Assembly (NCBI GenBank): GCA_029265355.1
Contig: JAJUJL010000003.1
Coordinates: forward strand, 248,001-312,000
Direction: 5' to 3'
Source: Chloroflexota bacterium
GTDB taxonomy: Bacteria; Chloroflexota; Anaerolineae; Anaerolineales; UBA4823
Length of the DNA stretch: 64,000 nucleotides
Both the position numbers and the translations under genes were made by a program. The notes below the pieces were generated by a model, which made no database searches, was not told where the DNA came from, and saw only the letters and a program-made list of their open reading frames with translations. Of the stretch, positions 1,277 through 37,396 are shown one piece after another. Position 1 is the first letter of the stretch. Each line of letters starts with the position of its first letter.

Positions 1277-1294
1277 GCCGATAACCAGGTTATC

Positions 1295-1986: not shown

Positions 1987-2008
1987 AATCATGCCGGGAG
2001 CAAAATCA

Positions 2009-3591: not shown

Positions 3592-3597
3592 TCGCCT

Positions 3598-4170: not shown

Positions 4171-5216
4171 TCCAAATCAATGGTGCATTGGGCGAGGGTG
4201 GTGGTCAGGTATTGCGCACTGCGCTCACTCTATCAATACTGACTCAACAGGCAGTTCGAATATCCAACATTCGCCTACGCCGTCCAAAACCTGGTTTGCA
4301 AGCCCAGCATCTGGCGTGCGTAGATGCTGCCGCCAGCATCAGCCGCGCCACCGTGGAAGGCGCATCGCGCGAGTCGACGAAACTGGTATTCCAACCCGGA
4401 AAAATTCGCACCGGAAGGTTTCACTTTGAAATCAATACTGCCGGATCAGCTTGCCTGGTTCTGCAAACCATTTTTTTACCGCTCAGCCTGGCAGGCAGCA
4501 CTTCGACGGTCTCGATTTCTGGCGGCACACACGTACCCTGGTCGCCTTCTTATCATTACCTCGCTTATCAATGGCTGCCGGTGCTGACCTGGATGGGTTT
4601 TTCCGCCGAGATAAACCTGCAACAAGCTGGTTTTTATCCTCGTGGTGGGGGCGTGATCCGGGCTACCCTACATCCATGCCATCGAATTCAACCCCTACAG
4701 GCAGATGAGCCTCTCAAAACTGCCCAGATCGAGGGCATTTCTATGGTATCGAACCTGGAAAAAAGCATCGCTGAGCGTCAAAAGCGCCAGGCAACATTGA
4801 GACTTCTGCCGCATTTTGCCAGTATCCGAATAAAGATAGCTGAGATTCCAGCCGCCTCACCAGGCACACATCTGTTGCTAAAAGCTGTGTCACACTCTGC
4901 GGATGGTCCCCCTCTGGGCGGTTGCTATTCATCCCTTGGACAGCGCGGCAAACCCGCCGAGCGCGTCGCAGATGAGGCTGTTGATCCGATCATCAACTAC
5001 GTGCAATCCGGCGCCAGTGTAGATCGCTTTCTGGCCGATCAAATCCTACTGCCCCTCGCATTGGCAAAATCCCCATCCTGGTTTACAACGGATGCCATTA
5101 CCACTCACTTGCTCACCAATGCCGAGGTCATTCGCGCGTTCCTTCCTGTACAGATCAATATCGAAGGCCAGATGGATTCTCCTGGGCGCGTATCGCTTCA
5201 GCCCCCAGCCTCTTAG
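4167..5216 (+). CDS. rtcA: RNA 3'-terminal phosphate cyclase
   Basis: ATP-dependent enzyme that converts an RNA 3'-phosphate to a 2',3'-cyclic phosphate, an end-healing step before ligation. The N-terminus carries the family signature GEGGGQVLRTALTLS, and the C-terminal region has the conserved THLLTNAEVI segment whose histidine is the nucleotide-accepting residue in E. coli RtcA. At 349 residues it is full length. In many bacteria rtcA sits with the RNA ligase rtcB under RtcR; neither is present here. Instead it is coupled upstream to a pseudouridine synthase (4-base overlap) and abuts the DNA polymerase IV gene. Confidence 0.92.
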   Translation: MIQINGALGEGGGQVLRTALTLSILTQQAVRISNIRLRRPKPGLQAQHLACVDAAASISRATVEGASRESTKLVFQPGKIRTGRFHFEINTAGSACLVLQTIFLPLSLAGSTSTVSISGGTHVPWSPSYHYLAYQWLPVLTWMGFSAEINLQQAGFYPRGGGVIRATLHPCHRIQPLQADEPLKTAQIEGISMVSNLEKSIAERQKRQATLRLLPHFASIRIKIAEIPAASPGTHLLLKAVSHSADGPPLGGCYSSLGQRGKPAERVADEAVDPIINYVQSGASVDRFLADQILLPLALAKSPSWFTTDAITTHLLTNAEVIRAFLPVQINIEGQMDSPGRVSLQPPAS

Positions 5217-9561: not shown

Positions 9562-10757
9562 AACTGAGCCACGCTTTCAGGCGCATCGGTGTGATCTTTG
9601 CGAAAGAAGCCATCGACAATCTGCGTGACCGCCGCTCGATTTTCACTGCCCTCACCAGCACACTGATCGGTCCTGTGCTCTTACTGGTCATGATTGTCAT
9701 CGTTGGTCGAACCTTCAACCAGGAAGGTCTGACCACCAGTTTCAGGCTACCGGTGATCGGCGCTGAAAATGCTACCTCTCTGATCGCGTATTTGGAGCAG
9801 AACGGTGTCAAGATTGTTCCCGGACCGGCCAACCCGCAGCAAGCTGTAAAAAACGGCGACGAGGATTTGGTGCTGATCATCCCTGAGGAATACGGAGAGG
9901 ACTTCTCACAGGGGTTGCCAGCCACGATTCAAATCGTCATCGACACCTCTCGGCAATCCTCACAACCAGCTATAGAGCGCATCCGCCAACTGCTCAACAC
10001 CTATTCTGCTCAAATTGCCTCCCTACGCTTACTGGCGCGAGGAATCAGCCCAGCGGTTATCCAGCCATTGGCTGTCGAGCGGGTTGATATGGCGACGCCA
10101 GAAACGCAAGCGTTGATTTTCTTGAATATTCTGCCTTACTTTGTGATCCTGGTGGTTTTTATGGGCGGAATGTACGTGATCATCGACACCACCGCTGGCG
10201 AACGGGAGCGCAATTCGTTGGAACCGCTCTTGATCAACCCGGTGCCGCGTTGGGAAATGGTGATTGGAAAACTGGTTGCATCATGGCCTTTCGCGGTGGC
10301 AGCCCTGTTCATCAACCTGCTGGCTTTCTCTCTAGCCTTCAACTACTTCCCTTTGGAAGATTACCTGGGAGTCCAGATTCAACTGGATGTGCGCGCCCTG
10401 ACCGGTATTTTCTTCATTTCCTTGCCCATGATCGTATTGGCCTCCGCTCTCCAGATGATCATCGCGACTTTTACGCGCAGCTTCAAAGAAGCGCAAACTT
10501 ACGTGGGCTTTCTCCCCCTCATCCCGGCTCTGCCAGGCATTGGATTGGCCTTCTTGCCAATTAAACCCAGCCTGTGGACCATGTTGATCCCTTCGTTCGG
10601 GCAGCAAATCTTGATCAACCAGTTTCTGAGATCCGAGCCAATCGCCTGGGGCAATGTGTTGATTTCTACCTTGACGACCATCGTTTTGTCCATTCTGCTG
10701 ATCTTCGTTGCAATTCGCCTATATAGCAGCGAGCGCATCCTGGGCTCGGCGAAATAA
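9558..10757 (+). CDS. ABC-2 type transporter permease, NatB-like
   Basis: Membrane subunit (399 aa) paired with the preceding ATPase. One N-terminal membrane helix (about residues 30-52) is followed by an extracytoplasmic domain of roughly 150 residues and then five to six helices from about residue 190, with the typical GERERNSLEPLLINPVPR cytoplasmic stretch between the first helices. This layout (ABC2_membrane_3/NatB type) fits an exporter. Translational coupling through ATGA at 9558. Confidence 0.88.
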   Translation: MKLSHAFRRIGVIFAKEAIDNLRDRRSIFTALTSTLIGPVLLLVMIVIVGRTFNQEGLTTSFRLPVIGAENATSLIAYLEQNGVKIVPGPANPQQAVKNGDEDLVLIIPEEYGEDFSQGLPATIQIVIDTSRQSSQPAIERIRQLLNTYSAQIASLRLLARGISPAVIQPLAVERVDMATPETQALIFLNILPYFVILVVFMGGMYVIIDTTAGERERNSLEPLLINPVPRWEMVIGKLVASWPFAVAALFINLLAFSLAFNYFPLEDYLGVQIQLDVRALTGIFFISLPMIVLASALQMIIATFTRSFKEAQTYVGFLPLIPALPGIGLAFLPIKPSLWTMLIPSFGQQILINQFLRSEPIAWGNVLISTLTTIVLSILLIFVAIRLYSSERILGSAK

Positions 10758-10772
10758 CTGCCAGAGGCAATC

Positions 10773-11039
10773 ATGGAAACCGAAAGAACCTTTACTATTT
10801 CCGAATTGCGCCGCTTCGATGGCGAGCGCGGACCGATGTACATTGCCTGCGATGGCATCGTTTACGATGTGACGGATTGTTACCGTTGGCGCACAGGGCT
10901 GCACGAGATGCTTCACTTCCCAGGGCAGGATCTGAGCCACGAGTTGGTCAACGCGCCTCATGACGGCGAGGTATTCTTGCATCCATGCGTCAAGATCATT
11001 GGCCGCTTGATTTCGCCGATTTCCAGAAATGAAGAATAA
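10773..11039 (+). CDS. mini cytochrome-b5-like heme/steroid-binding protein
   Basis: Small 88-residue soluble protein of the COG4892-type cytochrome b5 group: the b5 core is recognisable in MYIACDGIVYDVTDC, then LHFPGQDLSHELVNAPHD. H48 and H63, framing the GQDL turn, are the expected axial heme ligands. The family is found in anaerobes; its redox partner is generally unknown. It lies 15 bases after the exporter permease and 17 bases before the gyrase-pinwheel gene, and may be co-transcribed with both. There is no membrane anchor. Confidence 0.8.
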   Translation: METERTFTISELRRFDGERGPMYIACDGIVYDVTDCYRWRTGLHEMLHFPGQDLSHELVNAPHDGEVFLHPCVKIIGRLISPISRNEE

Positions 11040-11056
11040 CGCGGGAATTTTGCCTT

Positions 11057-12109
11057 ATGAAAAGACCTGATCTCTCATCCACTACTCCAGAAATCCAGGC
11101 TTACATTCTTGCCCTGGAGGAAGAACTGGAAAAATTAAAATCTTCGCAAAAAACACAGGAAGAACCCTACCCAACCGCGCCTTTAGAGCCCGATGAGCCA
11201 CCGACCACAATGGGTGTGATCACTGCCACCCGCAGTGGCATTGCCAAACGCACCCTGCGACACGTCTATTCACGCCAGCGCCGCGGCGGGATGGGCATCT
11301 TCGATTTAGAAACCTCCGAAAATGACCCGCCGGCGATGCTGTGCATTGCCGACCAAGATCAGAGCTTGCTCTTGATCACCAATCTGGGTCGCGCCTTCCG
11401 CCTGCCCGTCAGCGCCGTGCCCGAGGCGCCACTACGCGCCCGCGGTAAATCCATCCTGGGAAAGATCAACCTGAACGATGGAGAGCATCTGGCGCTGATG
11501 TTACCAGTGCAGGCGCAAGGCTACCTGGCAGTTCTGAGCAAAACCGGCATGCTGCGCACGCTGCGGCACCACATTTTTGGCGAATACATGAAACCTGGCA
11601 CGCCGCTGTATGATTACCGGTCTTTTGGCGAAGTTGCTTCCGCCTGCTGGACGCCCGGTGACGCCGATTTGTTGCTCGCTTCCATCGCTGGCAAAGCCAT
11701 TCGCTTCTCTGAAAAGCTGGTGCCGCCGCAGGGTTGCCTGGGCATCCGGCTGAGCGATGGGGATCAGGCCGTTGCTGTAACTTACACCTACCCGGATAGC
11801 AATATTTTATTGATTGGGGCAGACGGAAAGGGTACACGGCGCAGCATGAACACCTTCGCCGCCAATAAAGCCCCCGGTTCGGGCGGAAAAATCGCCTTCT
11901 CCACCGAGCATCTGCTGGCTGCTCTGAACGCTGACGGTATCGACGATGTCTTTATTATTTCCAGGCTCAGCAAGATCATCCGTTTCAAAGCCGAAGAGAT
12001 CCCCGTCAAGGATGGCGTGGTTCAAGGCGTCATCTGCATGAGTTTCCGCGCTGACGAAGCCAGCGCCGTGACAGTCAGCTACCGAACAGCAGCAATCAAT
12101 ATCGCCTAA
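11057..12109 (+). CDS. stand-alone gyrase-A C-terminal-domain-like beta-pinwheel protein
   Basis: A 350-residue protein without any topoisomerase catalytic domain. Residues 12-32 form a short charged helix likely to coil, followed by a Pro-rich linker (36-49). From about residue 52 to the end it matches the six-bladed DNA-wrapping pinwheel of gyrase subunit A, including a near-perfect gyrase box, QRRGGMG at 74-80 (consensus QRRGGKG). In gyrase this domain wraps DNA and gives the enzyme its ability to supercoil negatively. As a separate protein it could act in trans on a gyrase or topoisomerase IV lacking this domain, or as a DNA-bending protein; both are inferences. ATG 11057 has no strong ribosome site. 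Confidence 0.82.
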   Translation: MKRPDLSSTTPEIQAYILALEEELEKLKSSQKTQEEPYPTAPLEPDEPPTTMGVITATRSGIAKRTLRHVYSRQRRGGMGIFDLETSENDPPAMLCIADQDQSLLLITNLGRAFRLPVSAVPEAPLRARGKSILGKINLNDGEHLALMLPVQAQGYLAVLSKTGMLRTLRHHIFGEYMKPGTPLYDYRSFGEVASACWTPGDADLLLASIAGKAIRFSEKLVPPQGCLGIRLSDGDQAVAVTYTYPDSNILLIGADGKGTRRSMNTFAANKAPGSGGKIAFSTEHLLAALNADGIDDVFIISRLSKIIRFKAEEIPVKDGVVQGVICMSFRADEASAVTVSYRTAAINIA

Positions 12110-12134
12110 AGCTCAGTCAGGACAACAAAAGCGT

Positions 12135-13085
12135 ATGGCGACCAGATCAACAGGCTACTTGAGCAAGCATTTCCAACTGCATGAACTGGCTGCGAATATA
12201 TTTGCTGCCATTCACCGCCCGGGCGGGGCCTCCATCAGCAATGCAGGTTTGATCTATTTGGGCCGCCAGTTACTCTGCTTCGACGCCTTCCTCTCGCCGC
12301 TGGCAGCAACCGACCTGAACCTGGTGGCCGAGTCGATGTTCGACAGAACCATCGATTACCTGGTTTTCAGCCACCATCACAGCGATCACACCTGGGGTAG
12401 CCCGTCATTTTCTCCCGATACTGAGGTTATCGCCAGCGCCCTCACCCGCCAATTGTTGGAAACTGCCGGGCAAGATGAGATCCGCTTCTATCGCGAGAAC
12501 TACGAACAAATGCAGGCACTGCTGAATGCCGTGCGCGATACCCAGAATATCATGCCTGGCGCGCAAACATCTACCACCTGGCAGGAATTCCTCCAAACGA
12601 CACTTGATACTTACTCGCGGGCGCGTGTCCGACAGCCAACCCTGACCTTCAGCAAACAAATGATGCTGCATGGCTCTCGCGAAAGCGTGCAATTGATCCT
12701 GGTGTGCGGCGGTCACACAGCATCCGATACCATGCTGTATCTGCCAAAACATGAGATCCTCTTCACCGGCGATTTGGTCACCATTCGTTGCCACCCCTAT
12801 CTTCCGGAGAGCACGCCCGGAGGTTTCCTGGCCGCCCTGCAACAGATTCTCGATCTATCGCCCAGGGTCATTGTCCCGGGTCATGGACCTGTAGGCACGC
12901 TGGCCGATGTTCACCTGCTGGTAGATTATTACGAGGAGTTGCAGCGCATCGCAGCCAGGCGGCGCGCCTCGGGAATAGATACCGATCCCGCCGCTCCCGT
13001 GCAAATCCCCGAGCGGTTTCAGGGCTGGGCGTTTGACAACTACTTTCAGGACAATTTGCGTTGGATCAGCGAGACGCTGTCGTGA
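12135..13085 (+). CDS. metallo-beta-lactamase-fold hydrolase
   Basis: Soluble 316-residue MBL-fold hydrolase. The zinc-binding motif HHHSDH is at 80-85 (H80, H82, D84, H85), a further histidine is in CGGHTASD near 196, an aspartate in FTGDL near 217, and the last histidine in VPGHGPVG. This is a complete dinuclear site. The helical insertion between about 110 and 170 is larger than in glyoxalase II. The substrate could be a thioester, lactone or phosphoester. It follows the pinwheel gene by 25 bases and ends 34 bases before the acetyltransferase-like gene. Confidence 0.85.
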   Translation: MATRSTGYLSKHFQLHELAANIFAAIHRPGGASISNAGLIYLGRQLLCFDAFLSPLAATDLNLVAESMFDRTIDYLVFSHHHSDHTWGSPSFSPDTEVIASALTRQLLETAGQDEIRFYRENYEQMQALLNAVRDTQNIMPGAQTSTTWQEFLQTTLDTYSRARVRQPTLTFSKQMMLHGSRESVQLILVCGGHTASDTMLYLPKHEILFTGDLVTIRCHPYLPESTPGGFLAALQQILDLSPRVIVPGHGPVGTLADVHLLVDYYEELQRIAARRRASGIDTDPAAPVQIPERFQGWAFDNYFQDNLRWISETLS

Positions 13086-23566: not shown

Positions 23567-26338
23567 ATGGATGTCAAACTCACCATCAACAACACACCCA
23601 TAACCGCCACACCCGGTCAAACCATCCTCGAGGTCGCTCGCCAAAACGGCATCACGATCCCGACATTGTGTTATCACAAAGACCTTTCACCGGTGGGCTC
23701 TTGCCGTCTCTGCGTGGTCGAAGTGGAAAAGTGGCGTGGGCAATCGGCTGCCTGCACCACCCCGATCTCGGAGGGCATGGTTGTGCATACCGAATCGCCA
23801 GCAATTATTCAAAGCCGGCGATTAGTGCTCGAACTGCTTCTGCAAAATTATTACGACGCCGGTTATGCCATGGGCGACCGGCCGCAGGACAATGAGTTCA
23901 TCCACTGGGTCGAACACTACCGGGTCACTGCACCCCGCCAGGCACAGCCGCGGTTCGCGGTGAATAGCGACCCCAACCCGGTCGTTTGGGTGGATTTCAA
24001 CAAGTGCATCCTCTGCACTCGCTGCGTGCGCGCTTGCGCAGAAGTGCAGGGGCGATTCGTGTGGGGCGTCGCTGAACGCGGCCATCAAGCCCAAATCGTG
24101 GCTGGCGCAGGCGTGCCCATGCTGGAAGCGCGCTGCGAATCGTGCGGAGCCTGCGTGGCTTACTGCCCGACAGGCGCCTTGGATAACCGCATGTCTGTCG
24201 GCCTGGGGGCGGCGGACCGCAAAGTGCTGACCACCTGCACCTACTGCGGCGTTGGCTGCCAGCTCGATCTCAATGTCAAGGATGATGTTCCAGGGGGGCG
24301 GGTATTTCGCGTAACCTCTAATCCCAATGCGCCAGTCAATGGAATGCACCTGTGCGTTAAGGGACGCTATGGGTATGACTTCATCCACCACCCGGATCGC
24401 GTCCTTCGTCCCCGGGTGCGCCGGTACCTGCTCCAGGGATTACCCAGGCCAGAACATGACCGCGGCGAGTGGGTCGAGGTTGACTGGGATACAGCCCTGG
24501 GGATTGCGGCTGAAAAATTGCGCCAGACCCGCGAACAGCATGGTCCAGACAGCATCGGCGTTCTCACTTCAGCCAAGTGCCTGAATGAAGAAAACTATTT
24601 GATGAACAAATTTGCCAGGCAGGTGATTGGCACCAATTCGATAGACCATTGCGCCCGTCTCTGACACTCCAGCACCGTGGCCGGTCTGGCCACTTCCTTC
24701 GGCTCGGGCGCGATGTCGAACTCCATGGACGATGTCGCCAACCACGCTCAGGCGCTGCTGATCATTGGCTCCAACACCACTGAACAGCACCCCGTCTTCG
24801 GCAGTATGCTTCGCCAGGCTGTGCTGCGGCGCGGCGCCAAGTTGGTGGTTGCTGATCCGCGGCGAATCGATATCACCGAATTTGCCACGCTGCATTTGCG
24901 CCACCAGCCAGGCACAGATGTCGCTCTGATCAATGGGCTGATGCACATCATTGTGCAAAATGGCTGGGAAGATAAGCAATTCATCGCAGAGAGAACGGAA
25001 GGTTTCGAAGACTTCCAACAAGTTATCCAGGAATACGACCCTGAAAGAGTTTCAGAGATCACCGGTGTACCCGTCGATGACCTGGTGAAGGCTGCCGAAA
25101 TCTTATCCCTGAATAAGCCGATGGCCGTCATGTGGGCAATGGGCATCACCCAGCACATCGTGGGTGTGCGCAACGTCATGGACCTCGCCAACTTGCAAAT
25201 GCTGCTGGGAAATATGGGCGTGCTGGGTGGAGGGGTGAACCCACTGCGCGGCCAAAACAATGTCCAGGGCGCATGCGATATGGGCGGTTTGCCCAACGTC
25301 TATCCCGGCTACCAGGCAGTGACCTCAGCGGAAGCGCGCCAGAAATTCGAAGCCGCCTGGGGTGTCCCCCTCTCAGACCAGATTGGGCTGACCGTGACCG
25401 AGATGATCCCCGCCGCCGGAGAGGGGAAAGTGAAAGCGCTGTACATCCTGGGCGAAGATCCAGTGATGAGCGATCCCGACACCAACCACATCCGGCATTG
25501 CCTGGAAACTTGCGAGTTCATCGTGCTGCAGGAATTGTTCCCCAGCGAAACATCTGTTTACGCCGATGTGCTGCTCCCAGGCGTCAGTTTTGCAGAGAAA
25601 TCGGGTTCTTTCACCAATACCGAGCGCAGGGTTCAAATCGTTCGCCAGGCAATCCAGCCGCTGGGCGAAGCGCGCCCAGATTGGCAAATTACCGCTGAAC
25701 TGGCGCGCCGCATTCTCCAGGCCGGACCCCGCCAGGCTCAAGACGCTCCTTACGCCAGTTGGGACTACACAAGTACTGCCGAGATCATGCAAGAAATCGC
25801 TGCCTTGACGCCCATCTATGCCGGAGTTTCCCACGCCCGGCTGGAGGCTGGCGAGCGACTGCAATGGCCTGTGAAAGACGGCCGCCATCCCGGGACGCCG
25901 ATCCTGCATGTGGGGCAATTTTCGCGGGGGAAAGGGCGCTTTATGCCCATCGAACATGTGCCTCCCGCTGAGCTTCCCGACGATGAATATCCGATGCTGT
26001 TGAGCACCGGGCGTGTGCTCTATCACTGGCACGGCGGGCAAATGACGCGCCGGGCTCAAGGTCTGCTGGCGATTTACAGCGAGTCGCTGATCGAGCTGAA
26101 CCCGGAAGACGCCCAAAGACTGGGCCTGAATGGCAACCGCCGTGTGCGGGTGACTTCTCGACGCGGCTCCATCGTCGCCCAGGCCTGGATCACTGACCGA
26201 GTGCCACCCGGCATGGTCTATGCCAATTTCCACTTTCCAGAATCGCCGGCCAACGAATTGACCCTGGCCGCCCTGGATCCGGTGGCGAAAATACCCGAAT
26301 ACAAGGTTTGCGCTGTGAAGGTGGAATCTGCCACATGA
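23567..26338 (+). CDS. fdhA: formate dehydrogenase alpha subunit, selenocysteine-containing
   Basis: Catalytic subunit oxidising formate or reducing CO2, 923 residues when the in-frame TGA at 24662-24664 is read as selenocysteine (residue 366). The context CARL-U-HSSTVAGL matches the known Sec site of E. coli FdhF (CARV-U-HGPSVAGL), and a SECIS hairpin follows at the same distance. Order of domains: plant-type [2Fe-2S] (cysteines near 36-66), two [4Fe-4S] clusters (CILCTRCVRAC and CESCGACVAYC, about 146-205), a CTYCGVGC cluster of the molybdopterin oxidoreductase fold, then the cofactor-binding domains to the end. The NuoG-type His-Cys3 cluster motif is absent after the [2Fe-2S] domain. An automatic call would wrongly split this gene in two. 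Confidence 0.95.
24662..24693 (+). promoter_or_regulatory. Sec codon and bacterial SECIS element in fdhA
   Basis: TGA at 24662-24664 is followed 12 bases later by a perfect 6-bp stem (GTGGCC at 24677-24682 with GGCCAC at 24688-24693) closing the loop GGTCT. The loop GGTCT begins 18 bases after the TGA, which is the same distance and the same loop as I recall for E. coli fdhF. This hairpin would recruit SelB with Sec-tRNA. The bulged U of the E. coli stem is not seen. Confidence 0.9.
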
Positions 26339-26426: not shown

Positions 26427-27626
26427 ATGAAAAGATCAATCTACAAACCCGTTCTCGCAGCAACGACCCTGCTGCTGTTTGCACTGGCGTGCGGTTTGCC
26501 GCTACCCACCCCCGCCCCGCTGGCGACCGTCGATACGGCTCCTTTGTATACCCAGGCAGCCGAGACGCTGGTGGCTCAGCTCACCCATGCAGCGGAAGAG
26601 ATTGCGGCAACCCAGCAAGCGCCCGTAGCCAGCCCAACCCAAGCCGCAGCGATCGTTGATACCCCCACGCCGCTGCCAACCCTGGCGCCCCCGGCCACTC
26701 CCACGCCCTTTCCCACAGCCTCGCCCTTTCCCACCATCACCCCAATACTCGCCACAGCCACCCCCGAGAAACTCTGCAACGCGGCGCGCTTTGTCGAAGA
26801 TGTCACCATCCCCGACGGTACCCGCCTGAACCCGGGCGAGAGTTTCGTCAAAATTTGGGAACTGGAGAATGTTGGTACCTGTACATGGAGCGAAGACTAC
26901 GAGCTGGTTTTCTCGCGCGGCGATCAGATGAGCGGTCCGGACAGCCTGTCCATCGATCAAGAAGTTGCACCGGGGGATAGCATCCAAATTGGTGTCGACC
27001 TGATCGCGCCGACCAGCAAAGGCGAGTACCGCGGCTATTGGTTACTGAGCGACGAAGAGGGCGAGACCTTCGGCGTTGGCTCCAGCGCGAAATCCGCCTT
27101 CTGGGTAGACATCGAGGTGCGGGAGGTCAATAGCGGGATTGTGTACGATTTCGTCGCCAACTACTGCTCAGCCACCTGGCAAAGCAGCGCCCGCACGCTG
27201 CCCTGCCCCGGAAAGGGCGATGAACCCTCCGGTTTCGTTCGGCGCCTCGACCGGCCTGAGCAGGAAAACCGCACCGAGAACGAACCTGCCCTGTGGACAA
27301 ATCCGGAAATGGAAGACGGCGGATGGATCACAGGCACCTATCCGGCAATCACTGTCAAGAAAGGCGATCGCTTCCTGGCTGATGTCGGCTGCCTGAAGGA
27401 TGCGAAGAAATGCGATGTGCTCTTCCGATTGGATTACAAAATCGGCTCCGGTGCAGTCAAGAACCTGGGAGAATGGAATGAAGTCTATGATGGCAACATC
27501 ACCCGCATCGATGTCGATTTGAGCGATCTGGCGGGTAAAGAAGTCCGCTTCATCCTGACCGTCACCACAAACGGCGAGTATGAAGAGGACGAAGCTTTCT
27601 GGCTGGTTCCTCAGATCAAGCGCTGA
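26427..27626 (+). CDS. lipoprotein with NBR1-type Ig-like domain
   Basis: Secreted 399-residue protein of unknown role. A signal peptide ends at FALAC (C22), a lipobox. A Pro/Thr/Ala-rich linker (about 25-112) follows. Residues about 115-232 form an NBR1-like Ig domain (FVEDVTIPDGT, then KIWELENVGTCTWSEDYEL and a PTSKGEYRGYWLLSDEEG strand pair), a domain common in Chloroflexota surface proteins. The C-terminal 160 residues look like a second beta-sandwich with four cysteines, possibly carbohydrate-binding. Start ATG 26427 with GGAGG just upstream. It stands alone downstream of fdhA, with a possible terminator after it. Confidence 0.8.
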   Translation: MKRSIYKPVLAATTLLLFALACGLPLPTPAPLATVDTAPLYTQAAETLVAQLTHAAEEIAATQQAPVASPTQAAAIVDTPTPLPTLAPPATPTPFPTASPFPTITPILATATPEKLCNAARFVEDVTIPDGTRLNPGESFVKIWELENVGTCTWSEDYELVFSRGDQMSGPDSLSIDQEVAPGDSIQIGVDLIAPTSKGEYRGYWLLSDEEGETFGVGSSAKSAFWVDIEVREVNSGIVYDFVANYCSATWQSSARTLPCPGKGDEPSGFVRRLDRPEQENRTENEPALWTNPEMEDGGWITGTYPAITVKKGDRFLADVGCLKDAKKCDVLFRLDYKIGSGAVKNLGEWNEVYDGNITRIDVDLSDLAGKEVRFILTVTTNGEYEEDEAFWLVPQIKR

Positions 27627-27699: not shown

Positions 27700-29505
27700 T
27701 CAACTTAAGACAATCGCTAATTGAAATACGCACCCGTTGCTGGTCAGCCCAACGACCTGCGCGCGGTGATCATCGAGCGAGACCAGCTTCAGATCAACAA
27801 TCCCATCCTGAGTCATCTCACACGGCAGCCCAGACCAGGTGATCACATCGCTGGAGAAAAAGAGCCTGTCCGCAGTTGCCGCAATCAAGCCGACCCCAGG
27901 CAAAGCCAAAAGAGATAGCACAGGTGCGTCGTCCCCGCTGATACGTATCCGTTGCCAGCCATCCTGAGACTGAACCAGGATGATCGACCCGAGCGCCAGG
28001 TACCAACGTCGATCGAGATACGCACAGCGAACCGCTGGGTGAGTCGTTGATTCGACTCTCAACAACTCCCAATGATCTCCAAGATCTTCGCTGCGCCAGA
28101 ATTCAAGGCGCGCTTCGCTCTCAGCACGGCTGACCACCAGCATCGTGCTTTCCAGGGCAGTTGCGGCTGAACCGTAGATGGCGATGACTGCGCCTCGGCA
28201 GGGAGAATGCGTCCGAATCCAGGCCTTATCAGGGCTGGGTTTACGCCATAAGCTGCCATCCGCTGCGCCAGCCCAAACCCCCGAGCTGCTTTGCGCCAGG
28301 CTGATCACTTCGCCGCCCCAAGACGCATCTTCAAAGTTAGCCCGCTTCGCGCCCAGGCGGATCACTTCTGGTCCGCACGCCGCCAACAGGTCTTGCCCTT
28401 CCCAGCTCAGCGCCAGTGGATTGATTGCCTCGCCATCTGGGCTGTGAGCTTCTTGCCAACTGATGCCGCCATCTTCACTCAGCCAGACACCCTCGCGCAT
28501 ACCGCCGACTGCCAGCGGTTGCTCGCTGTTGACAGCAAGGCTATGCACCTGCCGGGCTACGAACGTATCATCCTGTTCCCAGGTACTGCCCAGGTCAGGC
28601 GAGCGGAATAAGCCTCGCGCCCCTGCACCCGCCAGAATGATCCCGTCGATCTCCGCCAGAGTCAGGATAGCGCCTGGGAGAACTGCGAGCAGTGCCCAGC
28701 TCACCCCTGCATCCACCGAAGTAAAAATCTCGCCTGCCCCGGTGCCTGCCATGAGCGTGTGATTGGAGAGAAACAGCAAGCAGTTTATGGGATGTTCTTC
28801 ATCGGAGACAGGTTTACACACCGCCCAACTCCTGCCCTGGTTGCGGGAAATATGAACGCTTCCTTCAGCCGTGCCCGCCGCAACCAATCCATCCTGCCAA
28901 TAATTCGGGCTCACCGCCAGGCATAACACTGCCTCGTCTACCAGGCCAGCAGGTTGCCAGGCGCGCCCGGCATTGGGTGAATAATAGACGCCCTGCTCCA
29001 ACGCAGCAAAAACCGGTTCCTTGCGCTGCCAGTGAGGCGCAACGGCAAGGGCGTTCACCTGGAAATTCCGCAATCCAAAATTTGCCAGCTTCCATGAACG
29101 CCCTCCATCCACAGAGCGAAGGATACCGTGTGTTTCTGTCCCGGCGAGCGCCACACCATCCTGCACAAAGGAAGGCGAAAGCGCCAGGCTGGTTATAGCT
29201 GTGATCTGTGGGGGGATTGCGCAGCGCTGCCAGGTTCTACCGCGGTCAGCCGAACGAACCAACACAGCGTCATATCCTCCAGCCAATATCATCCGATGAC
29301 GAACAGCGATCACCGGCGCATCGCGCCGAGGAAATCCTCTCAGCACAGGCCGCCAGGCAAATTCATCCTGGTGGAACAAACCCGCCCCCGTCCCCGCCCA
29401 CAGCCTACCGGCCTCATCGCTCGCCAGGGAGAGCACCACGCCGCCCGCTGGAAGTGAGCCGGTTCGCGTGCAAACGACCCGCACCTCAGCAACCTCACGG
29501 TTCAT
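27700..29505 (-). CDS. Asp-box (BNR/sortilin-like) beta-propeller protein
   Basis: A 601-residue protein built from WD/BNR-type blades. At least eight Asp-box motifs of the S-x-D-x-G-x-x-W type are visible: SADRGRTW, SVDGGRSW, SPNAGRAW, SRNQGRSW, SVDAGVSW, SPDLGSTW, SEDGGISW and SEDLGDHW. This suggests one large or two linked propellers related to Ycf48/sortilin or sialidase folds; no sialidase catalytic residues are recognised. There is no evident signal peptide, so it is probably cytoplasmic. Its ATG (29503-29505) overlaps the end of the chaperonin gene by 11 bases, so the two are translated from one message and may work together. Confidence 0.85.
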   Translation of the reverse strand: MNREVAEVRVVCTRTGSLPAGGVVLSLASDEAGRLWAGTGAGLFHQDEFAWRPVLRGFPRRDAPVIAVRHRMILAGGYDAVLVRSADRGRTWQRCAIPPQITAITSLALSPSFVQDGVALAGTETHGILRSVDGGRSWKLANFGLRNFQVNALAVAPHWQRKEPVFAALEQGVYYSPNAGRAWQPAGLVDEAVLCLAVSPNYWQDGLVAAGTAEGSVHISRNQGRSWAVCKPVSDEEHPINCLLFLSNHTLMAGTGAGEIFTSVDAGVSWALLAVLPGAILTLAEIDGIILAGAGARGLFRSPDLGSTWEQDDTFVARQVHSLAVNSEQPLAVGGMREGVWLSEDGGISWQEAHSPDGEAINPLALSWEGQDLLAACGPEVIRLGAKRANFEDASWGGEVISLAQSSSGVWAGAADGSLWRKPSPDKAWIRTHSPCRGAVIAIYGSAATALESTMLVVSRAESEARLEFWRSEDLGDHWELLRVESTTHPAVRCAYLDRRWYLALGSIILVQSQDGWQRIRISGDDAPVLSLLALPGVGLIAATADRLFFSSDVITWSGLPCEMTQDGIVDLKLVSLDDHRAQVVGLTSNGCVFQLAIVLS

Positions 29506-31117
29506 AGCTCACTCTCGGTTTACGCTTCAAGATCAGAACTTCCGTGCCCAGAGCCATGGCTGCGCCGCTCACCGCGGTCTCCAGTGCAATAGCCAGAACC
29601 CGATAGGCATCCAAGATCCCCGCTGGATGGGCGGCAGATAACTTTTTATGAATCACGTCGAAAACTGTATCGGGATTGCCCTGCTGAACTTGCGCCAGGA
29701 TCAACCCCGACGAGGGTATGTGTGCATTTGCCAGCAGCCTGCGAAAAGGCGCTTCCAGGCTGATAGCCAGTGCGCGCACCCCCGCAGTTTGATCTGCGGT
29801 CAGCCCGCTGCTCCCAGAGGTCAATTTTTTCAACTCTGGTATGCAACGCAGAAAAGCGCTGCCCCCGCCGGCGAGCACGCCATCTTGCAGAGCGGCCTGG
29901 ATGGCCTTGATTCCCTGGCCGGCCTTCGTCTTGAGTGCGCTGCGCTCTGCGGCAGTGTGCGCCCCGATTTTTAAGACTGCCATGCTTCCGGCCATCCTGC
30001 CAAGGCGCATTTGCATTTCTTCCAGGTCGCTCTGGTTGCCACCCAATGAAACGACGCGCTGCTGGAGCTGCCTGATCCGCTCTTGAATTTCGATGAGGTC
30101 GCCTGCCCCTCCGCTCACCTGCAGGTATTGCAAATCTGCTTCAACTCGCCGCGCCGAACCGAGATTTCCGGCCCGAACGGAGCGGAATCCTCGATCGAAT
30201 TTGGCAGAAAATATTCTGGCGCCGGTCAGTGCAGCCAAATCTTCGAAATCTCCCGCGCCAAGCTCACCCACCCGTTCCAACGAAACTGCTGCAATCTTCA
30301 GTTTCGACTTTAGATGAGTGGTGACAATCAGGTTGAGCGCGTCTTCGCTGATTTTTTGGGCAACCAATAACAGGTGAGGTGGATCACACCGGATAGCGAA
30401 TTCCAGCAATGGCGCTACTTCCTCAATCTCGGTCAAGTTCCCTTCATACAGCGCCACCTGGCAATGATCCAGGCCCGTGGTATGCGCCTCGGGAGAGTTC
30501 ATCAGGTGAGGAGAAACCAGCGCTGCTCGCCATCGTCCCCCATCAACGTACTCGCGTTCCAGGTATGGCGCAGCATATTCCTCGATCAGGACGTGACCCG
30601 AAGCGCCAAGAATCCCGAATATTTCACCCAACATAAACGCCAGCTCATCATCGCCGGTGACCGATCTGGCAATCGCCTCCAAATCACTTTCATCCTTCAC
30701 CGGCTGCTTGAGCGATTGCAGTGTACGCAAGGCATGTTCAGCGCCAATGCGAAGGCCCTGTTGCACTTCCACCGCGTGCGCGCCAGCCAAACAAACCCTC
30801 AGCGCTTGATCGAAGATCGCCTGCGCCAGGATGGCGCTCGTCGCGCCGCCATCCCCAACCCTCTCCCGCACACGCCAGACCAGGTTGCGCATCATCATTG
30901 CGCCGACATCCATGCTGCTCTCCCCCAGCGATGTCACCCGCCGCACCATCGTAGCCGCATCCGTGAGCACTTCTGGTTGCGGCTTGAGCGTATCCTGATA
31001 CAGGACAACACCGCGCGTCGGTCCATAGGTACATGCGACCAGGTCTGCCAATTGATCGAAGCCCTTTTTCAGGCGGACAACCGATTCTGGGTAAGTGATG
31101 ACTGCCGGTTTATGCAT
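29495..31117 (-). CDS. divergent GroEL-type chaperonin paralogue
   Basis: A 540-residue full-length group I chaperonin with equatorial, intermediate and apical domains. ATP-site residues retained include the aspartate in VLTDAATMV (GroEL D52), GDG in VGDGGATSA (D87) and GILD near the end (D495). However, the position matching GroEL D398, which activates water for ATP hydrolysis, is Q401 (ALKTKAGQGIKAI). The C-terminal GGM tail is missing and no groES is nearby. This suggests a slow or non-hydrolysing paralogue rather than the housekeeping GroEL. Start chosen at ATG 31117 (MHKPAV), which aligns with GroEL; the frame continues to a TTG at 31150. The downstream propeller gene overlaps its end. 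Confidence 0.85.
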   Translation of the reverse strand: MHKPAVITYPESVVRLKKGFDQLADLVACTYGPTRGVVLYQDTLKPQPEVLTDAATMVRRVTSLGESSMDVGAMMMRNLVWRVRERVGDGGATSAILAQAIFDQALRVCLAGAHAVEVQQGLRIGAEHALRTLQSLKQPVKDESDLEAIARSVTGDDELAFMLGEIFGILGASGHVLIEEYAAPYLEREYVDGGRWRAALVSPHLMNSPEAHTTGLDHCQVALYEGNLTEIEEVAPLLEFAIRCDPPHLLLVAQKISEDALNLIVTTHLKSKLKIAAVSLERVGELGAGDFEDLAALTGARIFSAKFDRGFRSVRAGNLGSARRVEADLQYLQVSGGAGDLIEIQERIRQLQQRVVSLGGNQSDLEEMQMRLGRMAGSMAVLKIGAHTAAERSALKTKAGQGIKAIQAALQDGVLAGGGSAFLRCIPELKKLTSGSSGLTADQTAGVRALAISLEAPFRRLLANAHIPSSGLILAQVQQGNPDTVFDVIHKKLSAAHPAGILDAYRVLAIALETAVSGAAMALGTEVLILKRKPRVSYEP

Positions 31118-31160
31118 CGTCAAAGCGTCCAACCTATGATGTGCGGTCAAAAAATACTTC

Positions 31161-31189
31161 TTGACACCTGGGTTGCATTATTATACAAT
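31161..31189 (+). promoter_or_regulatory. strong sigma-70-type promoter of the ROK/sugar operon
   Basis: Perfect -35 TTGACA (31161-31166), 17-base spacer, TACAAT (31184-31189, 5 of 6). It lies in the AT-rich gap between the divergent chaperonin and ROK genes and would start transcription near 31196. It is the best promoter match in the window. No clear operator palindrome was seen around it. Confidence 0.78.
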
Positions 31190-31254
31190 AAAAACGGTAT
31201 ATTTATTTTTTCAACTTTATTAAACAAATCAAGGCTACCCCACGATTTCTGTTG

Positions 31255-32493
31255 ATGAAGGGCTCACCTACCTTCCCTGGCAGCAACATCACCCTGGTTA
31301 AATCCCACAACCTCAGGGCTGTATTGTTGAGTTTCCTTCATCAAGAACACATCTCGCGTATCCAGCTTGCCCGCCAGACAAATTTATCCAGCACCACCAT
31401 TACAAACCTGATCTCAGAACTTCTCGAGCAGGGAATCGTCATCGAGGAAGGCGTCGAGACCGCCCCGAATGCACGACGCCTGGGTCGTCCTCCGACTGCT
31501 TTGAAGTTGGTGCCAGATGCTCGCTACGCAATCGGTGTGCACATTGGTATCGGCCTGGTACGGGTAGCCATTGCCGATCTCTATGCCCGGCTGATCTACA
31601 ACCAGTTTATGAATTTCGACATCGCTACCCCTGCCGAGATCGTCTTGGATCGCATCGTGAACGAGATACAAACTGGCATCCAGCACAGTGGCATCACCCC
31701 TGAGCGCATCCTGGGAGTCGGCGTCGGCGCATCGGGATTGGTCAACTTCTCGGAGGGCGTGAATATCCTTGCCCCAAACCTCGAGTGGGTCAATATTCCT
31801 GTTCGCGATTATTTGCATCGCGCATTGAACCTGCCTGTCGTCGTGGATAACAATGTCCGTACCATGGCGCTGGGGGAAGCGTTTTTTGGTGCTGGGAAAG
31901 GCGCGAATTCACTCGCCTTTGTCTACGGCAGAGTTGGTGTTGGCGCCGGTTTTGTGGTCAATGGGCAGGTATTCCGGGGCAGCGCTGCAGGAGCGGGTGA
32001 AATCGGTCACGTCAAGATGATTTCTAGCCCTGCAGAAACCTGCCGCTGCGGGAAGCAAGGTTGCCTGGAAACCCTGGTTTCTGAAACCGTGCTCATACGC
32101 GAAGCAAAAAAGCTGGCCGAGCGTTACCCCCAGGGTGTGCTGGCTTCGCTCATCAAGCAACAGAATGATAAGAACCTTACGGACACCATTTTTGACGCCG
32201 CACGCCAGGGCGACCAGCACGTGAGAGAACTGATCCAAACCCAGGCATGCTACCTCGGCATTGCTTTGGCAAACGTGGTCAATATGATCAATCCAGAATT
32301 GATCATCCTGGGAGGGCTTTTTGCCCAAGGCGAAGATCTGATTGTGCCCATTGCCTCAGAAACGATGCGCAAGCAGGCATTTGCTGGGCTCGGCGACAGT
32401 GTCACGGTGCGCACCACGAGCTTTGGCTGGCGCGCTGGCGTCACCGGAGCAGCCGCGCTGGCATTGATGACATTTTTCTACCAGGAACCTTAG
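31255..32493 (+). CDS. ROK-family transcriptional regulator
   Basis: Sugar-responsive repressor (412 aa). Residues about 15-65 are a winged helix (ISRIQLARQTNLSSTTITNLISELLEQG), followed by a ROK domain. The ROK zinc motif CRCGKQGCLE and GEIGHVK are present. The ATP-binding region VGVGASGLVN lacks a clear kinase signature, as expected for a NagC/XylR-type regulator rather than a sugar kinase. ATG 31255 or TTG 31252 starts the gene. As first gene behind a consensus promoter and just ahead of the isomerase (eight bases), it likely controls the glycoside operon and its own expression. Confidence 0.9.
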   Translation: MKGSPTFPGSNITLVKSHNLRAVLLSFLHQEHISRIQLARQTNLSSTTITNLISELLEQGIVIEEGVETAPNARRLGRPPTALKLVPDARYAIGVHIGIGLVRVAIADLYARLIYNQFMNFDIATPAEIVLDRIVNEIQTGIQHSGITPERILGVGVGASGLVNFSEGVNILAPNLEWVNIPVRDYLHRALNLPVVVDNNVRTMALGEAFFGAGKGANSLAFVYGRVGVGAGFVVNGQVFRGSAAGAGEIGHVKMISSPAETCRCGKQGCLETLVSETVLIREAKKLAERYPQGVLASLIKQQNDKNLTDTIFDAARQGDQHVRELIQTQACYLGIALANVVNMINPELIILGGLFAQGEDLIVPIASETMRKQAFAGLGDSVTVRTTSFGWRAGVTGAAALALMTFFYQEP

Positions 32494-32501
32494 GAGCCTT
32501 T

Positions 32502-33863
32502 ATGACGCACCTCCGCATCGCATTTGCACCCCTGGCCCGCACAACTTTCGACATGTCATTAGCAAACGAGGTCACCCAGTCGGCGCGCCAAAGCCTGGCG
32601 GAGGCAGGCTTTGAACTGGTCGGTCCCGCGGAGTTGATCACGGATGCTGCATCAGCGCAGGCTGCAGCCCACGCCCTTCGCCAGGAGACAGTTGATCTGC
32701 TCTTGATCTTCCAGGCGACATTTGCCGATAGCACCATGCTCCATGCCCTGGCAGATCAAATCACCGCACCCATCTTTTTGTGGGCTGTCCCTGAACCTCA
32801 TACCGGAGGGCGCTTAAGGTTGAATTCGTTTTGCGGCATCAACCTGGCTGGTCACGCCCTGACACTGCAAGGCAAGAAATATGATTACACATTCTCTCCT
32901 CCGGGAGATGAGCAGGCCATCGAAGCGGTGCGTACCCGCGCACAGGCTGGCCGCGTCCTGCGCAAGCTTCGCGAGGCGCAGCTTGGCGTGGTTGGCGAAC
33001 ACCCGGCCGGAATGGATACCTGCCACCTGGATATGGGTTATTTGAATGAGACGCTTGGTTTACGTGTGCAGCGCATCGAGCTCCAGGAAGTGTTCCAGCG
33101 CGCCAGGGCGATCAGCCCTGCGGAGATCACCCGCGTGCGGGAGAGATTATCTCAAAAGCTTCCCAACCTGGATCAACTCGAGCAAAAGCCGCTCGCCGGA
33201 ACGCTGAGCGTGTATCGCACGCTCAAGGAGATTTGCCAGGAGCGGCGATTAGATGGACTGGCTGTGCGCTGCTGGCCCGAGTTCTTCACCGACCTGGGCT
33301 GCGCAGCCTGCGGGGCTATGTCCATGCTCACTGACGAGATGACTCCTTGCTCATGCGAAGCAGATGCGAATGGAACAGTCACCCAACTTATGCTGCAGTG
33401 GCTCAGTGAAGAGCAAGCCTTTGGCAGTGATGTAGTATCCATAGACGAACAGCGCGATGCCCTGATCTTGTGGCACTGCGGTCTGGCGCCGCTCTCCATG
33501 GCTGACCCAACCGTGACCCCACGCGGCACTATTCACTCCAACCGGAGAGTCCCGCTGAACATGGAATTTCCTCTCAAACCGGGCAAGGTGACCGTTGCGC
33601 GCCTCAACCGGCATCCCGCATCAGGGGACGATGCACAGCGCCACGCCTACCGTCTGGTGATTGGTTCCGGAGAAATGCTCTCTGCGCCGCCTGCATTCTC
33701 GGGTACCACAGGCGCCCTGCGATTTGACCGACCGGTCAGGCAGGTGATCGACACGATCTTGCGAGAAGGGCTGGAACATCATGTCTCGATGACTTACGGC
33801 AGCTACCTGCCCGCCCTGACGGTTATCGCCGACCTGTTGGAAATGCCAGTCGTCAGACTCTAG
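32502..33863 (+). CDS. L-fucose/L-arabinose-isomerase-like protein (COG2407 type)
   Basis: A 453-residue protein resembling the FucI/AraA sugar isomerases. After two Rossmann-like domains the segment FFTDLGCAACGAMSMLTDEMTPCSCEADANG contributes acidic metal-ligand candidates, and a C-terminal GLEHH supplies a histidine. Likely reaction: Mn-dependent aldose-ketose interconversion of a sugar released by the neighbouring glycosidase; related proteins isomerise fucose, arabinose or, in some sulfoglycolytic clusters, sulfoquinovose. Start ATG 32502 with TAGGAG five bases upstream; a longer frame overlapping the ROK gene is a shadow. Confidence 0.75.
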   Translation: MTHLRIAFAPLARTTFDMSLANEVTQSARQSLAEAGFELVGPAELITDAASAQAAAHALRQETVDLLLIFQATFADSTMLHALADQITAPIFLWAVPEPHTGGRLRLNSFCGINLAGHALTLQGKKYDYTFSPPGDEQAIEAVRTRAQAGRVLRKLREAQLGVVGEHPAGMDTCHLDMGYLNETLGLRVQRIELQEVFQRARAISPAEITRVRERLSQKLPNLDQLEQKPLAGTLSVYRTLKEICQERRLDGLAVRCWPEFFTDLGCAACGAMSMLTDEMTPCSCEADANGTVTQLMLQWLSEEQAFGSDVVSIDEQRDALILWHCGLAPLSMADPTVTPRGTIHSNRRVPLNMEFPLKPGKVTVARLNRHPASGDDAQRHAYRLVIGSGEMLSAPPAFSGTTGALRFDRPVRQVIDTILREGLEHHVSMTYGSYLPALTVIADLLEMPVVRL

Positions 33864-33985: not shown

Positions 33986-35383
33986 ATGGAAGAAAAAAAC
34001 AACCGTGTGCAGCTTACCCGCCGGGATTTTCTCAAGCTCGGCGCATCCGGTGTTGCAGCGTTGGTGCTCTCCCGCTGTGCCCCAACTCCCACTCCAGAAG
34101 CTCCTGCTGCTGGCCCGGCTGCCACAGAACCCCCGATGGCGCCCACCACGGTGGAATTCCTGGCCTGGGGCGATAACGCCGATATCCCCGCCTGGGAAAA
34201 GCTCTCCAAGCTCTACATGGAACGCAATCCGAACGTGACCGTCAATGTCACTACCGTCGCTGAACCAAACGCCAACTTCTATCCGAAGCTGCAGACCTCG
34301 ATCGCTGGCGGCGCCCCTCCTCATGTATCTTCGTTCCAGGGTTGGGAATGGCAAACCTACGCCGATAAAGACCTGCTGGCGCCCATTGATGAGTATGTGA
34401 CGCGCGACGGTTTTACCGCTCCTTACCCGGATAACGTCAAAAGCATCGTGGACAGCACCTCCCGCAATGGGAAGAAGTATCTCATCCCGCTTCAGGTCGC
34501 CACGATGCTGATGTTTTACATCAAGAAGCCCTTTGATGAAGCTGGCATTCCCTATCCCACCGATGATTGGACCTACGATGAGTTCCTCGAAATTGCTCGC
34601 AAGCTGACTGACACCAGCGGCGAGTTCAAGAAATACGGCTTGCAGGCCAATGGCAACTGGTTCCGTGACATCGGTTGGATACGCGGCACGGGCAAGCAGG
34701 AATTCGACTCGATCGTTGATCCAAAGAAAGCCCAGTTCAGCCAGCCCGAAATCATCGATATCGTCCAGAAGATGGCTTCGGATGTGTATTACGAGATGAA
34801 GATTTCCCCGTCACCCGCGGATCTCTCCGGTGGCGCTAACTCCTTCCAGACTGGCAATTGCGCCATGAAGTACGAGGGGCCGTGGTGGTTCCCAACCATG
34901 AACAGCCCTGAGCTACGCGCGGAAGGCAAACAGCTCGAATTTGACGTCGTACTGATGCCCAAGATGGCGGATGAGTCCCGTCCACATCGCGGTTGGGCTG
35001 AGGGCGTGGCGCTGCTCAAGGGCGACAATGTCGAGGCAGCCTGGAAATTCGCCAGCTTCATGGCCGGCGAAGAAGGCGACAAGATCTACTCCGAGACCAC
35101 GGGGCGCATGCCGAACAACCTTGCTTTGTTGGAGAGCTTCTGGCTGCCAACCGTGACCGAGAAATTCCAGCTTCAAAACGGAAAAGCTTTCATCGAAGCC
35201 TTCAGCCGCTCTGAAGTGGATGTGGTGGGCGGCGTACCGCGCAGCCTGATGTGGAGCGAGATCGTCAAACCGACCGGCTGGGATCCGCTCATCAACGGGA
35301 GCGCTAAGGCCGCTGACGTGCTGCCGGCTGTCGACCAGGCCCTCCAGGCCAAGCTGGACGAGTACTGGGCCACCCAGGGCTAA
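33986..35383 (+). CDS. ABC sugar transporter, extracellular solute-binding lipoprotein
   Basis: Sugar-binding protein (465 aa) of the family-1 (MalE-like) type. The N-terminus carries a twin-arginine motif, RRDFLK (12-17), and a lipobox ending LSRC with C31, so it is probably exported folded through Tat and lipid-anchored. A Pro/Thr/Ala linker precedes the mature domain, which contains the usual lobes (WGDNADIPAWEKLSKLYMERNP at the front). Strong ribosome site GAGGAG at 33971-33976. It feeds the two permeases downstream and is separated from them by a 192-base gap with stem-loops, a typical arrangement for making more binding protein than permease. Confidence 0.92.
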   Translation: MEEKNNRVQLTRRDFLKLGASGVAALVLSRCAPTPTPEAPAAGPAATEPPMAPTTVEFLAWGDNADIPAWEKLSKLYMERNPNVTVNVTTVAEPNANFYPKLQTSIAGGAPPHVSSFQGWEWQTYADKDLLAPIDEYVTRDGFTAPYPDNVKSIVDSTSRNGKKYLIPLQVATMLMFYIKKPFDEAGIPYPTDDWTYDEFLEIARKLTDTSGEFKKYGLQANGNWFRDIGWIRGTGKQEFDSIVDPKKAQFSQPEIIDIVQKMASDVYYEMKISPSPADLSGGANSFQTGNCAMKYEGPWWFPTMNSPELRAEGKQLEFDVVLMPKMADESRPHRGWAEGVALLKGDNVEAAWKFASFMAGEEGDKIYSETTGRMPNNLALLESFWLPTVTEKFQLQNGKAFIEAFSRSEVDVVGGVPRSLMWSEIVKPTGWDPLINGSAKAADVLPAVDQALQAKLDEYWATQG

Positions 35384-35575: not shown

Positions 35576-36487
35576 ATGGCCGCAAAATCATTGACCAAGT
35601 TTGAACGACCATCCCGAGGAACCCTGCGGGAGTGGACGGCAGGCTATCTCTTCGCTTCGCCGTTCATCATCGGTTTCCTGGTTTTCACCGCGTTTCCGAT
35701 GGTTTATTCCATCTGGCTTGCCTTCCACCGTTGGGATCTGATTACACCTCCCCGCTTCATCGGGTTCGATAATTTCATTCGCATGTTCAAAGATCCGCTG
35801 GCGAACCTGAGCCTGTACAACAGCGGATATTACACACTCTTCGCGGTGCCAATACAATTGGTAATCTCGTTTGTCCTGGCATTGGCGCTCACTCAGAATA
35901 TAAAATTTCGCGATCTCTACCGGGCTGGTTTCTACTTACCGATCATCGTCCCCCTGGTCGCCAGCGCCGTCGTCTGGCAGCGAGTTTTCCACCCGGAATT
36001 TGGTATTCTCAATGAAATCCTGGGCTGGTTTGGCATTCAACCGCTGAGCTGGTTATTCAAACCCGAATTGGCAAAACCCGCTTTCATCCTCATGTCTTTC
36101 TGGATGATTGGACGTCAGATGGTGATTTTTATCGCCGGGCTGGGTAACATTCCCGAGACGCTCTACGAAGCTGCCAGTCTGGATGGAGCTGGCGCATTGA
36201 CGCGCCTTTTCAAAATCACCATTCCGATGATGACGCCGCTGATCTTCTATAATATGATCATCGCCATCGTCAATTCATTCCAGACGTTTATCCCTGCCTT
36301 GATCATGACCGATGGTGGGCCAGAAAATGCGACATTGTTTGCCGTCCTGAATATCTACCGCCAGGGCTTCAACTACTTCAATATGGGATACGCCTCAGCG
36401 CTTGCCTGGGAGTTGTTTGTGATCATCGTTGGTTTCACCATCGCCCAATTCTATATCTCTCAGCGCTGGGTGTTCTACGAGGACTAG
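35576..36487 (+). CDS. ABC sugar transporter permease, MalF/UgpA type
   Basis: Membrane subunit (303 aa, six helices) of a carbohydrate ABC importer. The cytoplasmic EAA loop that docks the ATPase reads EAASLDGAGALTRLFKITIP (about 203-222). ATG 35576 follows AGGGAG. It pairs with the following permease, nine bases downstream. No ATP-binding subunit is encoded nearby, so a shared MsmK-type ATPase from elsewhere in the genome is assumed. Confidence 0.93.
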   Translation: MAAKSLTKFERPSRGTLREWTAGYLFASPFIIGFLVFTAFPMVYSIWLAFHRWDLITPPRFIGFDNFIRMFKDPLANLSLYNSGYYTLFAVPIQLVISFVLALALTQNIKFRDLYRAGFYLPIIVPLVASAVVWQRVFHPEFGILNEILGWFGIQPLSWLFKPELAKPAFILMSFWMIGRQMVIFIAGLGNIPETLYEAASLDGAGALTRLFKITIPMMTPLIFYNMIIAIVNSFQTFIPALIMTDGGPENATLFAVLNIYRQGFNYFNMGYASALAWELFVIIVGFTIAQFYISQRWVFYED

Positions 36488-36496: not shown

Positions 36497-37396
36497 ATGG
36501 CAACCAGATCCCCTGCGATTTCGAGCGTGCGCAGTGTGACCCGGCAGCCGCTCATTTCCCCTGTGTGGAGCAGGCGAATAGGCTTGATCCTGCTTCAGAT
36601 CCTGATGACGGTCATCCTGATCAGCTTCCTCGTACCGACCTTATGGATGATCTCTTCATCGCTGAAGGTGTCCAGAGAGGTCTTTGCTCACCCCATTGTC
36701 TGGATACCCGAAAGCCCCCAATGGCGAAATTACCTAAAGATTTTCGAGGTGCTGCCCTTCGGCAAGTTTGCCTGGAATACGGTGGTGGTCACCGGGCTGG
36801 CCGTGCTGGGTACAGTGGTATCTTCGCTCACGGTCGGCTACGCCTTCTCCAGGCTGCGCTGGCCTGGAAGGCGATTCTTTTTCGCCCTGATGATCGCCAC
36901 CATGATGCTACCCGAGGTGATCACGTTGATCCCCCGCTTTCTGGTTTTCCGCTGGTTGGGCTGGATCGACACCTTTTTACCCCTCATCGTGCCCTACTGG
37001 GCGGGCGCCTCTGCGTTGTACATCTTCCTGGTGCACCAGTTCTTTCGCGGGCTACCCATGGAACTGGAAGAAGCCGCTTTGATTGACGGCGCAAACCGCG
37101 TCCAAATCCTGACCCAGATCTTGATCCCACTTTCCAAGCCCGTCATCGCCACGGTCGCGGTTTTTGCCCTGATCCAGCATTACAACTCATTCCTCGAACC
37201 GTTGATTTACCTGAATGGCATGGATAAATGGACCCTGGCGCTCGGTATCCGCGCCATCAATGATTCGAACGTCCAAAACTGGGAGCTGGTCTTCGCTGCT
37301 GGCACACTGATGCTCGCCCCGGTGCTGGCTTTGTTCATCGTGGCGCAGCGCTATTTTGTACAGGGCATCGCCATGACCGGGTTTGGTGGTCGTTGA
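36497..37396 (+). CDS. ABC sugar transporter permease, MalG/UgpE type
   Basis: Second membrane subunit (299 aa) of the importer, with six helices and the EAA loop EAALIDGANRVQILTQILIP near 195-214. The extended N-terminus (about 25 residues before the first helix) is basic and cytoplasmic. AGGAGG-like site (tAGGAGGa) overlaps the previous stop. Expected to form a heterodimer with the preceding permease. Confidence 0.93.
   Translation: MATRSPAISSVRSVTRQPLISPVWSRRIGLILLQILMTVILISFLVPTLWMISSSLKVSREVFAHPIVWIPESPQWRNYLKIFEVLPFGKFAWNTVVVTGLAVLGTVVSSLTVGYAFSRLRWPGRRFFFALMIATMMLPEVITLIPRFLVFRWLGWIDTFLPLIVPYWAGASALYIFLVHQFFRGLPMELEEAALIDGANRVQILTQILIPLSKPVIATVAVFALIQHYNSFLEPLIYLNGMDKWTLALGIRAINDSNVQNWELVFAAGTLMLAPVLALFIVAQRYFVQGIAMTGFGGR

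Follow-up and report, generated by a model that had tools for sequence, protein, structure and literature searches.

The 64,000-nucleotide stretch analysed here (the window; Chloroflexota bacterium, Anaerolineales, UBA4823; GCA_029265355.1, contig JAJUJL010000003.1, 248,001–312,000) encodes one member of an apparently undescribed GroEL-like family in Chloroflexota. The family consists of chaperonin paralogues that have lost the aspartate at GroEL position 398 together with T90. Tentatively, as a reading that could well be right but to which we give slightly less than even weight, we regard it as a slow- or non-cycling chaperonin dedicated to a co-encoded β-propeller protein. ATP hydrolysis timed by D398 is regarded as the clock of GroEL, and here a natural family is without the clock residue. 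No earlier account of a chaperonin–propeller link or of D398-less Chloroflexi chaperonins was found in the literature covered, subscription papers lying largely outside its scope. The features of the locus are collected in Table 1.

Table 1. Features of the chaperonin–propeller locus and of the divergent sugar operon (window positions; residue equivalences refer to E. coli GroEL).
Feature	Position	Strand	Basis or remark
BNR/Asp-box β-propeller protein, 601 aa, likely tandem propellers	27700–29505	−	profile matches, predicted fold
Overlap of chaperonin stop and propeller start, 11 nt (ATGAACCGTGA)	29495–29505	−	
Chaperonin-60 paralogue without D398, 540 aa (P0001)	29495–31117	−	ATG at 31117, stop at 29495
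D503 codon (D495 position, kept)	29609–29611	−	alignment
Q401 codon (D398 position)	29915–29917	−	alignment
A92 codon (T90 position)	30842–30844	−	alignment
D89 codon (D87 position, kept)	30851–30853	−	alignment
D53 codon (D52 position, kept)	30959–30961	−	alignment
Divergent intergenic region, chaperonin–propeller operon/sugar operon	31118–31251		
Promoter-like site in the intergenic region	31161–31189	+	predicted
ROK-family regulator, first gene of the divergent sugar operon	31252–32493	+	same place in L045 and L092
L-fucose-isomerase-like open frame	32247–33863	+	true start probably after 32493
ABC extracellular solute-binding protein	33986–35383	+	
Sugar ABC permease 1	35576–36487	+	
Sugar ABC permease 2	36497–37396	+	

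The window chaperonin passed the Pfam cut-off for Cpn60_TCP1 (PF00118; 103.3 bits, cut-off 34.3), and its residues 15–534 could be aligned with solved Cpn60 structures, collinear with GroEL. The end-to-end likeness to GroEL claimed in the earlier note is thereby borne out, for a gene on the minus strand. Identity to E. coli GroEL is approximately 26%, and the protein scored below the GroEL equivalog TIGR02348 (273.5 bits, cut-off 582), the chlamydial GroEL2 and GroEL3 profiles (73 and 120 bits, cut-offs of 600) and the thermosome/CCT (group II) profiles (at most 33.5 bits, cut-offs of at least 400). The AlphaFold model, built from an input alignment of three sequences, had a mean pLDDT of 46, too low for interpretation. 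With GroEL/Hsp60 (group I) the protein shares the three-domain alignment and the pocket motifs GP, GDG and GGG as well as D495; it differs from them in the absence of D398, in an alanine replacing T90 and in having a propeller instead of a groES partner. Neither the chaperonin nor the propeller gene was matched by PADLOC, leaving a role in anti-phage defence unsupported, and a search for viral relatives returned none.

Residues of the ATP pocket were mapped by MAFFT alignment with E. coli GroEL. As proposed previously, position 398 is occupied by glutamine (Q401), while the equivalents of D52, D87 and D495 (D53, D89 and D503) and the GGG loop (G414–G416, here G417–G419) are retained. In both proteins the GGG loop starts 16 residues after position 398/401, and the acidic residues nearest to Q401 are E391 (−10) and D412 (+11), none lying within nine positions. 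Because of this ungapped spacing and the lack of a nearby acid, Q401 represents a true replacement and not an alignment slip; a shifted Asp or Glu standing in at the catalytic site is ruled out on the same grounds. Further changes close to the active site are T90 to A (A92), K51 to T (T52) and E397 to G (G400).

A profile made from the first nine relatives was searched against 301 genomes of the order, where paralogues (>500 bits, n = 20) separated from canonical GroELs (<475 bits). D398 was missing from all 20 paralogues, which carry A or V at position 90 without exception, whereas the canonical proteins have D398 in 50/50 and T90 in 49/50 cases, the remaining one being a fragment misaligned there. 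Extension to 400 genomes of the phylum resulted in a final set of 41 Chloroflexota paralogues without D398, as compared with 51/51 canonical GroELs possessing it. All but one of the 41 have lost T90 as well, which 51/51 canonical GroELs retain. Position 398 is occupied by R (19), E (6), Q (4), A (4), K (3) and by N, H, V, S and G once each. D495 and G414–G415 are retained throughout (41/41), D87 in 36 with D87N in the other five, and D52 in 26, with 14 not keeping it and one truncated row missing the position. The relatives nearest to the window chaperonin (L045, 49%; L092, 44%; L090, 43%; L037, 37%) carry Q, K, Q and K, respectively. Glutamine is thus not restricted to this one genome, nor is it conserved among the relatives as the earlier note had proposed to check, arginine being the commonest residue; the conserved trait of the family is the absence of Asp at 398 and not Gln itself. 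The window protein, with no Asp at 398, a non-Thr residue at 90 and its closest relatives inside the family, is a member.

For seven pairs of relatives dN/dS was 0.07–0.19, showing that the paralogue genes are under purifying selection and are not decaying. Long branches and the 26% identity with GroEL would be expected of a functionless duplicate, but these dN/dS values, reading frames that are intact in nearly all members, and the conservation of partner and locus make such decay highly improbable; on the dN/dS values a pseudogene was rejected.

Thirteen more divergent paralogues do have D398, and three of them (L132, L134 and L135) are propeller-linked, so that propeller linkage does not require loss of D398. 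In a tree calculated by a quick method the divergent forms keeping D398 stand nearest to the canonical GroELs, and the window protein groups with L045, L090, L092 and L037. This suggests, tentatively since the tree has no reliable root (midpoint rooting served for drawing only), that divergence and propeller linkage arose before, or along with, the loss of Asp. A clade comprising L140, L142, L143, L144 and L146, mostly propeller-linked, combines D87 to N with D398 to E and has hence lost the Mg-binding aspartate as well. The genome G010 (contigs C115, C455, C595 and C789) has at least three propeller-type paralogues besides its canonical groEL; the fragment on C789 could represent a fourth or else the beginning of the paralogue on C595.

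The catalytic aspartate lost in the family is the one removed in the engineered GroEL trap mutant D398A, and D52A/D398A GroEL is a trap mutant as well. In contrast to these mutants, the family is natural and long conserved, usually has Arg, Lys or Gln rather than Ala at the site, and couples the loss with that of T90 and with apical divergence. GroEL D398A binds ATP normally and, with an ATPase at 3% of the wild-type level, remains able to encapsulate and fold protein, hydrolysis being needed only to advance the cycle and not for folding inside the cage (PMC3326522). According to modelling of Hsp60, the equivalents of D52 and D398 form a catalytic dyad (PMC12557358). From the behaviour of D398A, it is a sound inference that ATP hydrolysis in the D398-less chaperonins would be slow or absent, although the family departs from that mutant at more pocket residues, namely T90 (40/41), D52 (14) and D87N (5). 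An ordinary ATP-driven chaperonin with its cycle intact could have recruited another general base, e.g. D52 or a Glu at 398. The D52, D87 and D495 equivalents in the window protein, the Glu found at 398 in one clade and the residual hydrolysis of D398A agree with this, but with Arg at the site in 19/41 members, D52 also lost in 14/41 and no acid inside nine residues of Q401 we consider it quite unlikely. In the favoured mechanism the D398-less protein would form a GroEL-like ring that binds ATP but turns it over at a very low rate, if at all.

The genome of the window (G000; 5.05 Mb, 98% complete) contains three chaperonins. The separate canonical groES–groEL pair that the earlier note had suggested looking for is located on contig C32, with D398, and a second D398-less paralogue, with Arg at the 398 position and a propeller gene directly behind it, on C38. 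As had been noted, no groES accompanies the window chaperonin; groES matches in this genome are confined to C32 and C49. The C49 copy (G000:C49:125835-126095; L048) is an extra groES away from any groEL, and two groES genes occur in several relatives as well. The window chaperonin ends in ..KPRVSYEP, and the GGM tail is indeed absent as previously described; since the canonical GroEL of the same genome (...PPMPEY) is also without it, this is not a distinctive feature. In G296, two groEL matches of equal score and opposite orientation (C5:1392-2972 and 10665-12245) each have groES beside them.

Positions equivalent to Y203 and V264, which bind GroES and substrate in GroEL, carry mostly polar or small residues in the paralogues. 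The number of groES genes does not track that of the paralogues: more than one was found in 6/15 paralogue genomes, and G010 with its multiple paralogues has a single groES match, so that among these 15 genomes the counts do not support a dedicated additional groES. In view of the replaced contact residues, the lack of a linked groES and these counts, GroES use by the D398-less chaperonins appears doubtful. A ring of this kind would not run the GroEL/GroES cycle and would probably have a narrow clientele. The paralogue could also assemble with canonical GroEL into mixed rings, as a specialised subunit that slows or tunes the cycle in the manner of chloroplast Cpn60 alpha/beta. Canonical groEL is present in most genomes examined (e.g. 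G000, G010, G022, G046, G274 and G296) and the two proteins align end to end. However, identity with GroEL is only about 26%, several genomes have two or more different paralogues and the operon partner is a propeller rather than groESL; there is little likelihood of mixed rings.

At 27/40 D398-less loci having enough downstream sequence, the chaperonin gene is followed immediately by a propeller gene on the same strand, versus 0/50 canonical groELs (Fisher p 2e-13, uncorrected for shared ancestry), and a propeller homologue was found at 0/40 arbitrarily placed control loci. The linked members are spread over many families of the phylum, and the two genes overlap or stand no more than about 200 bases apart. 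The overlap in the window suggests translational coupling. Five genomes without an adjacent propeller were checked: a close homologue is encoded elsewhere in three (G198, G561 and G349), whereas G269 (100% complete) and G046, both with a D398-less paralogue, have no clear propeller homologue. At one propeller-less locus (L149) a 1091-aa TPR/DUF5107 protein (1087-4362) is encoded directly upstream of the D398-less chaperonin on the same strand.

Partner proteins measure about 280–350 or 480–720 residues, lengths that fit one or two propellers. The model of the window propeller is all-β and of medium quality (mean pLDDT 62, the first half being better), with GH74 tandem propellers as best fold matches (TM about 0.4). 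The protein scores under the YCF48 and F510_1955 cut-offs. It has the Asp-box repeats in common with YCF48/Asp-box (BNR, Sortilin-Vps10) propellers and GH74 xyloglucanases, but no obvious signal peptide.

The likeliest partner of the putative ring would be the co-translated, cytoplasmic Asp-box propeller, which may be held or helped to fold or assemble. Adjacency of the two genes is not proof of binding. Against a client relationship stand the variation in partner size, from about 280 to 720 residues, and the two propeller-less genomes; tandem propellers of 70–75 kDa would probably not fit a closed cage of GroEL size. A stronger version, a stable non-cycling ring that has given up both the hydrolysis cycle and GroES and is dedicated to or capped by its co-translated propeller, seems to us rather unlikely; if true, it would be a third way of using a chaperonin ring. 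The propeller might alternatively be a cap or adaptor, probably seven-bladed, which replaces GroES and closes or tethers a non-cycling ring storing or presenting a client of the sugar locus. The conserved operon, the loss of apical GroES-contact residues, the lack of groES co-expansion and the frequency of single-propeller partners of ~310 residues would fit a cap. Considering the twofold variation in partner length and the absence of the propeller from two genomes, we hold this to be unlikely.

CCT/TRiC, a group II chaperonin with eight subunits and an active ATPase, serves WD40 propellers without GroES. It provides a parallel for a chaperonin acting on β-propellers as in our preferred reading, though sequence similarity of the window protein to it is marginal. 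Chlamydial GroEL2 and GroEL3 (NF038370/NF038369) are likewise divergent GroEL paralogues, but not of Chloroflexota, and we know of no propeller linkage for them. They are reported to differ at the GroES- and ATP-binding regions (PMC1892554). The natural variants at position 398 on one tree (Asp, Glu, Gln and Arg), together with the D87N clade, offer a means to probe a chaperonin without its cycle, and the conserved partner gene is a concrete candidate client.

Divergent from the chaperonin, a block of five genes (ROK regulator, fucose-isomerase-like protein, solute-binding protein and two permeases) is conserved in L045 and L092; L037 has the transporter part, and in L092 the block is kept while the propeller is absent. 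Sugar ABC genes lie near 14/40 D398-less loci versus 1/40 control loci, the latter hand-picked at scattered places on large contigs from nine of the genomes (p 3e-4). This sugar-ABC context could indicate a non-chaperone role, in which a GroEL-derived ligand binder, acting jointly with the ROK regulator and the sugar operon, would serve sugar-uptake loci as a sensor or scaffold. Such a role would accommodate the divergent block, including the propeller-less L092, the 14 loci and the two members beside β-galactosidase genes (see below). As sugar ABC genes are missing from the examined stretch at 26/40 loci and there is no hint of a sugar site in the protein sequence, the probability of such a role is low. 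The earlier note had envisaged a cage or scaffold without naming a partner, which is possible; the genomic context points to the propeller gene and to sugar-uptake loci. The C38 paralogue, the 11-nt overlap, the divergent sugar operon and the changes at T90, K51 and E397 go beyond that note.

β-galactosidase (GH2) genes were located directly upstream of two D398-less chaperonins of different genera (L039, 8247-11636; L046, 7943-9835). In the window itself, a large frame at 24677-26338 resembles, by eye, a formate-dehydrogenase/molybdopterin oxidoreductase subunit, and next to it lies a lipoprotein-like gene (26427-27626), likewise recognised by eye.
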